Below are positions 42,391 through 47,510 of a stretch of DNA of 64,000 bases, piece by piece. The notes under the pieces are model-generated. The model saw nothing but the letters and a program-made list of their open reading frames with translations. It had not been told where the DNA came from and did not search any database. Both the position numbers and the translations under genes were made by a program. Each line of letters opens with the position of its first letter. Within the stretch, counting starts at the first letter, position 1. This DNA comes from an uncultured Clostridia bacterium. GTDB taxonomy: Bacteria; Bacillota; Clostridia; Christensenellales; UBA1242. Location: NCBI GenBank assembly GCA_947053595.1, contig CAMRSX010000002.1:83098-147097 (forward strand), in the 5' to 3' direction.

Positions 42391-42595
42391 ATAAAATAGT
42401 TTATGAAAGTTTGCATTTTTTGGTTTTATTTTCGGAAAAATAACATCAAAAACGGAGAAAAAAATTCACAAAAAGCGCTTAAAAATAATTTTTCAAAAAT
42501 TTACATAAAAAACTGTCTTTTGCTTGTAAAAAGTGTCGAAATCATGATATACTATAGATGACAAATTTTTGCACACAAAAATAAGGAGAATTGAA

Positions 42596-43777
42596 ATGGC
42601 AAGAAACCCATCTTATGACTTTAAAAACCTTTCAAAAGCGCACCAAGACTGCCTTAGTTTAATTGAGACCTTGGGCATATATGAACTGCGCGCTTTGGCA
42701 AGAGTGTTTGGAGATAATTCCCCAACAGTTTCAAAGAGGGATGACCACATCCGCATTGTCATGGACAAAATCATTTCTGGCGAAGAAGTTAAATCCATTC
42801 CAATGCGTCCGGGCAGACCATACAAACAGCTGTCTAACATTGAAGGAATTTTGGCAGAATTGTCGCAAATCACTGGAAAGGATTACACTCTCAAAACAAA
42901 TCAAACCAGAAACGTCAACCGCTCTCAAAAGATTGTTGTTTTCAGACAAGTTGAGGAAGACATCCTGAGTCAACAACTTTTTCCAATTGAAGTGCGCGGC
43001 GTTTTGCTGGAAAAAAGCGAAAAAGAGTTTGTGCTTAGCGACATCGAAACCAACACCATTGTGCTTGTGAAAAAAGATGGAAACGAAATGTTGAAGCCAT
43101 TTGACTTCATAACTGGCACCGCCGTGGTTATGAACACACAAAATGAATATATGATGAACGACATCAAAAGCATAAACTTCCAAAGCGCAAAAACATATCA
43201 CGACTTTGTTGCCCCATACAAACTTGCCGTGCCAACCGAAACACTTGACTTGGACGGAAAGAAAATTTTGCTTGGCTCCAGATATTTGTTGAAAGATGTT
43301 AAATTTGCCGACAACAAAACAGAAATTCAAGCAATCCTTAAAAAACTGAACGAAAACAAAATTGTTTCGCTTGCCATTGTGCCAAATGTTATGTATGAAG
43401 ATGTGATGCCAATCAAACAGCTTGGCTTCAACAATGTGTTCATGATTAAATATGACGAAAGCCCATTTGTTGCGTCTGAAATTTTTAACAACTTCATCAA
43501 TCACATCATTCGCCTGCAAGAGCAAGGCTTGAGCATTGCAATTTTTGTTCAAGACCTCACCACCCTTGCCGATTTTGTGGATTATGCATACAAAAACAAC
43601 ACCAAAGCCCTGATGGGACACACCGAAATGGCTGTGGAAGCCATCAAAAAAGTGGTGCTTTTGGCAAGAGATGGCGGAGATGGCAAACACACCACTCTTT
43701 TTGCAACGCTGGACGATTCCGACCTCACCGACCCACTGTTTGTGACAAGCGTATACAAAGTTTCAAAGCGTCTGTGA
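42596..43777 (+). CDS. Rho-like protein with no visible Walker A P-loop
   Basis: Rho_N-like N-terminus, cold-shock-like RNA-binding region, and C-terminal stretches alignable to Rho; ATG at 42596 with AAGGAG. Confidence 0.6.
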   Translation: [393 protein letters not shown]

Positions 43778-44904: not shown

Positions 44905-45404
44905 TGAACGGAAGAGTTTTTGGCATAAGAAAAAGCAACATCCTAAAAGCAATCACACTGCTGTTGCTGTTGCTGTTTGCGGCATATGTTGTTGCCTCAA
45001 TTTTTCTCTTCAAAAATTCTTCGCTTTGGTTTTACGCTTTTTGCATCTTTCTTGGAAGCTATGAGGCCGTTAAAAGCTTTTTGTTTAAGTATGACAGCTG
45101 CCTATACATCGGTTCGCTGTTTCTTGCAGTTGGTGTGGTGGGCTTTGTGTTTTCTTACACCAACACCTCCAATTTTGCCGCCTTTTTCATTGCGCTGGCT
45201 TTCATTGCCGCCTCAGTTTCCACTTACATCTTCACAGGGCAAAGTTTTCACCTTGTGATTGCTTTTTCGATATTTTTCGTGGGGATTTATTGCTTCTTAT
45301 ATATAAAAAATTTGATTACCACCCCAATTTTAATTGCTTTTTTGGTGCCATTTTTGGTATTATTGATTTTGGAGATTTTAATATTATGTTTTCACAAGAA
45401 ATAA
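44905..45404 (+). CDS. Multi-TM membrane protein
   Basis: MNGRVFGIRKSNILKAITLLLLLLFAAYVV...; overlaps the next gene by 19 nt; start approximate. Confidence 0.55.
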
Positions 45405-46003
45405 ATGGATATAACAAATCTGAGGTGGATGCCTACGTTCAAAAACTTAGGGCAAGCTATGAAGCCAAGCTTATGGAGGAGAAGCTGAAAACCCTTGACA
45501 GCGAGAAGCGGCTGCTTGACTTAAAAAACGAACACAGCGAAATTGAAAACAAAGAAAAAAACATTCTCAACGCGCTTAATGTGATTGAAAAAGCCAAAAA
45601 GTTTCAAGAGGAAGGCTCAAAAAACTTTTATAAGCTGATTATGGACAAACTGGAGCTGTTGATTAAGGAATTAAGCTCCAAGTTCCCTTCTTTGCGAAGA
45701 GACCAAAACTTTGAGGACATCATCAGCGAGTTTACAAGCATGCTGACAAACTATAAGGACAATTTGGACAAAGTGACGGACATCACCCGCCCAATCTATT
45801 CGGACAACGACAGCATGAGAATGCTTTTGGGTAAAATGCAAGACTATAAAAAAACTCAGGATGCGCCAAAGGAAGTGCACATTGCAACCACCCGCACGCG
45901 TGGCATCCCAGCAAGCGAAAGCGGCTTCAGCTTTGAAGAAGCGCTCAACCCAACAGACAATTTGGAAGAAATTATGAAAGCGTTTGATTTTTACAACGAA
46001 TAA
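45386..46003 (+). CDS. DivIVA-domain coiled-coil protein
   Basis: MFSQEINGYNKSEVDAYVQKLRASYEAKL; ATG at 45386 with GGAG upstream. Confidence 0.75.
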   Translation: MFSQEINGYNKSEVDAYVQKLRASYEAKLMEEKLKTLDSEKRLLDLKNEHSEIENKEKNILNALNVIEKAKKFQEEGSKNFYKLIMDKLELLIKELSSKFPSLRRDQNFEDIISEFTSMLTNYKDNLDKVTDITRPIYSDNDSMRMLLGKMQDYKKTQDAPKEVHIATTRTRGIPASESGFSFEEALNPTDNLEEIMKAFDFYNE

Positions 46004-46445: not shown

Positions 46446-47510
46446 TCACTTAAAAAACAAGGTTAAAAACATGCCGCTTGCCACGCCAATAACATATTGC
46501 AACAACACAATGCCCAAATTTTCAACAGGGTGCGCTTTGTTTTTTGTCCACAAAATCACCAAGCCAACGCCTGCCCCCGTGGTGAGCCCCGCCACCAACG
46601 CCGGAAAGCCCAAACTGCCCACCATAAACAGCTCCACCAAAAGCACAGAAGACGCGCAATTTGGAATCAGCCCAATCAAGCTTGCAATCACAACCTGCAC
46701 ATACAAGTTTTCTGTCAGCATGCTTTCCAAAAATTCTGTTCCGCAGCTGCCAACAATCATGTTGATTATGAAGGTTGCAACAAAGATGTAAATCACAATG
46801 TTGAATGTGTGGTCAAACGCATCCACCAAGATGTTGTTTCCACAGCACTGCCCATGGGTGTGTCCGCAGTCAGAATTGCAGTGTTCGCTATGCACATGCC
46901 CACATTGATGATGGCTGTGGATGTGCTGATGATTTTCTTCATGGTGATGCGTCGCACTCTCTTGCACGCATTCGTGAGCGCAACTTTCGTGATGCTTGCC
47001 ATGCTCTTCAGCAAAAGCCTCGCTATGCTTTTCAACAAAGGTTCCACCAGCCTCCTCAGCGCAATGCACCTTGCAATGCTGCCCAACACGCCTCTTTCGT
47101 TTTGAAATCAGCGCAATCACCAAATCAATCACATATCCCCACGCAATGGCCAAAACCAGTTTCAAACCAATCAAAATCAGCATGCTGACAATGCTGTCAG
47201 CGTTGGAAAGCATGATGGGAATGGCCTCGTCGGAGGTTGCAATGAAAACCGCCACCAGTGTGCCCAAAGAAAGCTTGCGAGAAGAATATAAATCTGCCAC
47301 CACTGAGGAAAAGCCACACTGAGGCACGCAACCCAAAAGCGAAGCATAAAAAACACTGGCTTTTTTGTTTTTGGAAAGAAACTTGGAAAACTTGTGGCTG
47401 TGGTCATGCGAAAGAAAAGCCACCAAAAGATAGGCAAGAAAAAGAATTGGAATCACCTTCATGCAATCCAACACAGCATCATACAAAGCGTCCACAAAAA
47501 TCTCTGCCAT
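46446..47510 (-). CDS. ArsP/putative Mn-transporter-like permease with His/Cys-rich loop
   Basis: Two related membrane halves (LLGCVPQCGFSSVVADLYS / LIGLIPNCASSVLLVELFM); loop HHHEENHQHIHSHHQCGHVHSEHCNSDCGHTHGQCCG. Confidence 0.8.
   Translation of the reverse strand: MAEIFVDALYDAVLDCMKVIPILFLAYLLVAFLSHDHSHKFSKFLSKNKKASVFYASLLGCVPQCGFSSVVADLYSSRKLSLGTLVAVFIATSDEAIPIMLSNADSIVSMLILIGLKLVLAIAWGYVIDLVIALISKRKRRVGQHCKVHCAEEAGGTFVEKHSEAFAEEHGKHHESCAHECVQESATHHHEENHQHIHSHHQCGHVHSEHCNSDCGHTHGQCCGNNILVDAFDHTFNIVIYIFVATFIINMIVGSCGTEFLESMLTENLYVQVVIASLIGLIPNCASSVLLVELFMVGSLGFPALVAGLTTGAGVGLVILWTKNKAHPVENLGIVLLQYVIGVASGMFLTLFFK

Follow-up and report, generated by a model that had tools for sequence, protein, structure and literature searches.

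Rho is by textbook definition an ATP-driven RNA translocase. The Rho of Mycobacterium tuberculosis (MtbRho) was at one time suggested to work independently of its motor, but has been shown to be a genuine motor (PMC4499133). In plastids, the protein RHON1 has been linked to transcription termination, as cited in PMC13289151, and some bacteria live without Rho, among them the cyanobacteria and some Bacilli (PMC13289151, PMC13323073). A search of the open-access literature for Rho proteins that are inactive or degenerate, or for pseudo-Rho, yielded no relevant paper.

Here, we analyzed a Rho homolog encoded in a 64,000-nt stretch of DNA from an uncultured Clostridia bacterium, which as a whole we call the window. 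The window protein shares with MtbRho the idea of a motor-independent dissociation of elongation complexes (PMC4499133), but MtbRho retains its ATPase, whereas the ATPase site of the window protein is gone by evolution. RHON1 likewise has a link to termination without canonical Rho and carries a Rho_N-type domain; compared by description only, it differs in not being a complete bacterial Rho that still carries a fossil RecA domain. As in Rho-less bacteria, the cell would lack an active Rho motor, but rho is absent from those bacteria, whereas the family studied here retains a motor-less rho under selection. The NCBIfam model NF041509 (paralog_Rho2; Rho, short form) also describes a divergent short Rho; the window genome has no second Rho, hence the window gene is no paralog. 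With Rho itself (TIGR00767; E. coli 1pv4 and 3ice; M. tuberculosis 7oqh), the window protein has a Rho_N, a putative cold-shock and a RecA-like domain in collinear order, and profile, fold, intermediates and gene order all show common descent. In contrast to Rho, it lacks the P-loop, the catalytic Glu, the Q and R loops, the arginine finger and the C-terminal subdomain, it scores far under the equivalog cut-off, and its constraint has shifted to the N-terminus.

Homology to Rho and genomic context

The reading frame is open throughout, from an ATG at 42596 to a stop at 43775-43777 (read directly; Table 1). Searched alone, the window protein gave no significant match in Pfam or in the PDB, and its sole NCBIfam match was paralog_Rho2 (E 0.06; 12.6 bits, with the cut-off at 628). 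Calls of rho presence or absence that are based on annotation miss this motor-less class.

We searched 61 related genomes for orthologs of the window gene, which is present in 34 of the 36 other congeneric genomes, and compared a 30-row alignment of congeneric orthologs (A1) with 17 canonical Rho proteins from the same order. The two aligned by hhalign over 348 collinear columns, from Rho_N through the end of the ATPase core (probability 99.6, E 5e-24), and the A1 profile retrieved E. coli Rho from the PDB at E 2.9e-6. An AlphaFold2 model of the window protein, built from 78 sequences, reached a pLDDT of 86.8, and the best 50 matches listed by Foldseek against the PDB were all Rho. The Pfam domain Rho_N (PF07498) was matched by 35 of the 78 aligned sequences (best 1.5e-6) and Rho_RNA_bind (PF07497) by eight; the window protein itself falls below the PF07498 threshold and aligns gap-free across the Rho_N region. 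In genome G093, from another genus, a single ORF is matched both by the Rho profile (6.5e-57) and by that of A1 (2.3e-29). The window protein shares ancestry with Rho along its whole length. The original prediction of a Rho-like protein thus holds, and the segments it had aligned to Rho lie where it had placed them. A likeness to ParB/Noc, hinted at by the single-sequence PDB search (E 0.1), was rejected, as the family profile ranks Rho far ahead.

This homolog is the only Rho of its genome. Profile search (TIGR00767) found no canonical Rho in the window genome (1.17 Mb, 99.6% complete) or in the 36 congeneric genomes, and none of 147 sampled family genomes holds a Rho above the TIGR00767 cut-off (509 bits), the best reaching 191 bits; the window gene itself yields no TIGR00767 match. 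The decayed form, defined by an A1 match, occurs in 131 of the 147, with frames open in nearly all of them and a few matches with one stop. Several of the remaining 16 genomes carry more divergent Rho-profile matches in ORFs of ~300-430 aa, of which those at L137, L148, L149, L156 and L161 were read individually. Most other families of the order hold a full-scoring Rho; in two genomes from other families (G047, G048) no Rho-profile match was found at E 1e-20. The genomes are mostly or wholly metagenome-assembled (MAGs). One relative in the set is Candidatus Caccovivens faecavium (Clostridia; L063), and the other records are labelled uncultured Clostridia or are MAGs under the name Christensenella; judging by record titles, many apparently come from animal-gut samples.

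In at least 12 other genera of the family, spoIIR-sleB-ypeB (identities assigned by Pfam) lie directly upstream of decayed rho on the same strand. The same three genes stand beside an intact rho, with two genes between, in a different family (G041), and directly upstream of a full-length, P-loop-broken rho in G044. Because the decayed gene occupies the same slot as intact rho, it is rho itself and not a paralog; synteny with intact rho, joined by graded intermediates, shows that it was inherited vertically. The decayed gene is thus the positional descendant of rho. Within the genus of the window species, it adjoins lgt, its downstream neighbor in 59 loci, so that for the window species the link to the orthologous position runs through the family orthologs. 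Its other neighbor in the window is a divergently oriented murA, which we rejected as a conserved rho neighbor since it is not conserved across genera.

Decayed rho has its own ribosome-binding site and promoter-like site, and a hairpin lies across its stop codon; it thus looks like an independently transcribed gene. Terminator-like sites number 36 in the whole window against 25.3 in shuffles (sd 4.6), and as this excess is modest we rested no conclusion on terminator counts.

Table 1. Features of decayed rho and its surroundings, in window positions
Feature	Position	Strand	Basis
Promoter-like site TTGTAA-18-TATACT, TG preceding the -10	42524..42553	+	consensus match only
Ribosome-binding site AGGAG, 7 nt 5' of the ATG	42584..42588	+	read directly
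Decayed rho ortholog, the genome's only Rho homolog, 393 aa	42596..43777	+	profile, PDB, Foldseek and genome searches
Rho_N (SAP-like) domain, aa 19-62; 9/17 invariant columns of the 78-row alignment	42650..42781	+	Pfam in relatives, alignment
AT-hook-like GRP motif RPGRPYK, aa 71-77	42806..42826	+	motif, alignment
Degraded cold-shock/primary RNA-binding domain, aa 129-200	42980..43195	+	hhalign, model, alignment
RecA-like core kept as a fold, aa 216-393; stops before R-loop, arginine finger and C-terminal subdomain	43241..43774	+	model, Foldseek, alignment
P-loop position, aa 234-242, DVKFADNKT in place of SPPKAGKTT	43295..43321	+	alignment
V265 where Rho has its catalytic Glu (E. coli E211)	43388..43390	+	alignment
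D320, coinciding with or adjacent to the Walker B Asp (E. coli D265)	43553..43555	+	alignments, within one residue
Terminator-like hairpin AAAGCGTCTGTGACGCTTT + TTCTTG across the stop codon	43765..43783	+	consensus match only
DivIVA-like coiled-coil ORF (MFSQEINGYNKSEVDAYVQ...)	45290-46003	+	family name from sequence alone
Predicted permease with long His/Cys-rich loop (HHHEENHQHIHSHHQCGHVHSEHCNSDCGHTHGQCCG)	46446-47510	-	

The RecA core and the N-terminal module

We examined the residues of the Rho motor, with E. coli numbering derived from the PDB chain numbering in the Rho alignments. The P-loop SPPKAGKTT lies gap-free opposite DVKFADNKT, with K184 replaced by N and T185 by K, which bears out the claimed absence of a Walker A motif. 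In the window protein, no counterpart exists or can be aligned for the Q and R loops, R353, the arginine finger R366 and the C-terminal subdomain. All 78 aligned sequences share D320, which the multiple alignment puts one residue after the canonical Walker B Asp (IFVQDL vs ILLDSL). Among 64 family proteins, GK[ST] is kept in three, all with E211 replaced by K, and E211 in five, none of which has a P-loop, so that no protein combines the two. All three keepers of GK[ST] belong to genus g26, in which others have lost it, and motif loss therefore went on after the family arose. These alignments show a RecA core without the features that would bind a nucleotide (P-loop), hydrolyze it (Glu, arginine finger) and translocate RNA (Q and R loops), and strongly support the earlier suggestion that the protein is ATPase-dead.

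Selection has kept a different part of the protein. Decayed rho is under strong purifying selection, with a dN/dS of 0.04-0.17 (median 0.07, 26 close pairs), and 13 of the 17 invariant columns in the 78-row alignment fall within the N-terminal 80 residues of the 393 (p 5e-7). Four of the 17 belong to the GRP motif (G73, R74, P75 and K77); the likeness of KKGRPPK-like sequences to an AT-hook is one of motif only. The Rho_N domain is SAP-like. Between canonical families, identity is 0.71-0.79 in the motor, 0.33 in Rho_N and 0.48 in the GRP motif, whereas between genera of the decayed family it is 0.16-0.19, 0.41 and 0.58, respectively. Constraint is thus inverted, from the motor to the N-terminal Rho_N/SAP-like domain and the AT-hook-like GRP motif. 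The cold-shock region is beta-rich in the model and aligned by hhalign, and its GYGFLR residues, the classical aromatic motif of primary RNA binding, are degraded in the window genus, the window protein reading EEFVLSD. RNA binding by the window protein is plausible.

Motor state across the order

A broken sole Rho is also found in parts of other families. In f15, a within-genus series leads from SPPKAGKTT/DERPEEV to LPRTIKSKD/AARPEDI. In f4, Rho is broken in g4 and separately in g96/g133/g118/g114; in f6, G346 has a broken Rho and G290 of the same genus an intact one; in f9, it is broken in G044. Several of the f4 genomes that keep a broken sole Rho measure 2-3.3 Mb, and motor loss is therefore not merely genome reduction. 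We built a tree from which the motif columns were removed and f1 was left out. On it, the broken label requires at least seven changes, and well-supported branches make three of them unavoidable; a single origin of broken Rho is rejected with f1 outside the tree (p-AU 2.9e-89). The motor has, by this tree, decayed independently several times in the order. The clearest separate losses are those of f4 and f15, and by taxonomy f1 adds another; the exact number of events is unsure, since some branches are long and the bootstrap did not settle. One family and parts of several others that keep a motor-less sole Rho are natural experiments separating the motor from the rest of the protein.

Some of these loci show intermediate states. 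L193, L195, L196 and L200-L202 (f15, genus g15) form a gradient from an intact to a fully broken Rho motor, which lends itself to working out the order in which motifs were lost. At L185-L188 (f4, 2.1-3.3 Mb), the sole Rho has an almost normal P-loop and is without R353 and the arginine finger; around E211, DERPEE has become DMTPED, DVNPED, DETPED or DVTPED. These proteins possibly represent a state that would bind but not hydrolyze nucleotides.

Possible roles of a motor-less Rho

Since the sole Rho has lost its ATP-driven engine, its remaining role must need no motor. The most likely candidate is an ATP-independent nucleic-acid-binding transcription factor, which we regard as the probable function. 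The N-terminus would grip nascent RNA and/or AT-rich DNA without ATP, and the fossil RecA domain would serve as an assembly scaffold or as a contact to RNA polymerase. The elongating polymerase would then be slowed, trapped or silenced stoichiometrically, instead of a motor pulling the RNA out, and actual release would be left to intrinsic terminators. In many bacteria, NusG is the partner of Rho. We found it in 40 of 40 genomes; being near-universal, it is weak evidence for a role in transcription and permits, without proving, such a role for decayed rho.

Several other explanations have to be weighed against this one. The original prediction took the protein for an ATPase-dead paralog that could bind RNA, regulate true Rho or act independently; such a paralog might also assemble with true Rho. 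Other families do include homologs without ATPase activity that control the active members, but there is no true Rho here to regulate, whether in the near-complete window genome, the 36 congeners or the 147 family genomes, and in other genera the decayed gene sits in rho's own syntenic slot; this idea is almost certainly wrong. We also find it very improbable that the protein is still a motor, using a cryptic nucleotide site or that of another subunit. The invariant D320, which coincides with or adjoins the Walker B position, and the three g26 members with GK[ST] would suit such a motor, but the P-loop K/T, the catalytic Glu, the arginine finger and both RNA-translocating loops were lost together, and neither the genome nor the 147 family genomes offer a second Rho-type subunit. 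Graded decay, C-terminal truncation and small genomes, together with the existence of rho-less Bacilli (PMC13323073), could instead mark a dying pseudogene, drifting once Rho had become dispensable in reduced genomes. The low dN/dS, the open frames in nearly all of the 131 genomes (a few matches have one stop) and the N-terminal residues invariant across 78 sequences make this highly unlikely, and the f4 genomes of 2-3.3 Mb with a broken sole Rho argue that reduction alone is not the cause.

Purifying selection is equally compatible with a new, non-transcriptional role. The protein may have been recruited outside termination, for example as a nucleoid-associated protein or a silencer of AT-rich DNA, through its SAP-like and AT-hook-like N-terminus. 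Its two most constrained elements resemble DNA-binding modules, and one family member (L151) matches a SAP profile at 5.5e-6, just under the profile cut-off. However, Rho_N is known from RNA-binding proteins as well, among them plastid RHON1, the AT-hook is matched by motif only, and a simple DNA-coating protein would need neither the RecA fold nor the putative cold-shock fold retained here. We consider recruitment of this kind rather unlikely.

A broader idea is more tentative and somewhat less likely than not. Besides its motor, Rho may possess a second, ATP-independent activity of ancient origin, such as trapping RNA polymerase or coating nucleic acid through Rho_N and the GRP hook. This activity could have been so useful that, within one order, several lineages independently dropped the motor and retained a sole Rho with nothing but that activity. 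The decayed proteins make a disputed question directly testable, namely whether Rho can act on RNA polymerase or on nucleic acid when no ATP is hydrolyzed.

Rho-less Bacilli lose the coding-strand purine bias (PMC13323073). A comparison of 37 loci of the decayed family with 16 loci from the order that have canonical Rho gave a median wobble purine content of 0.44 against 0.48. It was uninformative, because the canonical-Rho members of the order, unlike the Bacilli of that study, show no strong bias at wobble positions either (loci L162-L178).

The surroundings of decayed rho hold further conserved genes. The DivIVA-like ORF and lgt are conserved downstream neighbors in about 50 congeneric loci, and relatives of the permease with the His/Cys-rich loop occur near decayed rho in 33 congeneric loci and in three other genera. 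In family f1, L123, L124, L128, L137, L147 and others come from genomes of ~1 Mb with spoIIR, sleB and ypeB, genes of spore formation and germination, directly upstream of decayed rho; these bacteria are possible endospore formers with very small genomes.
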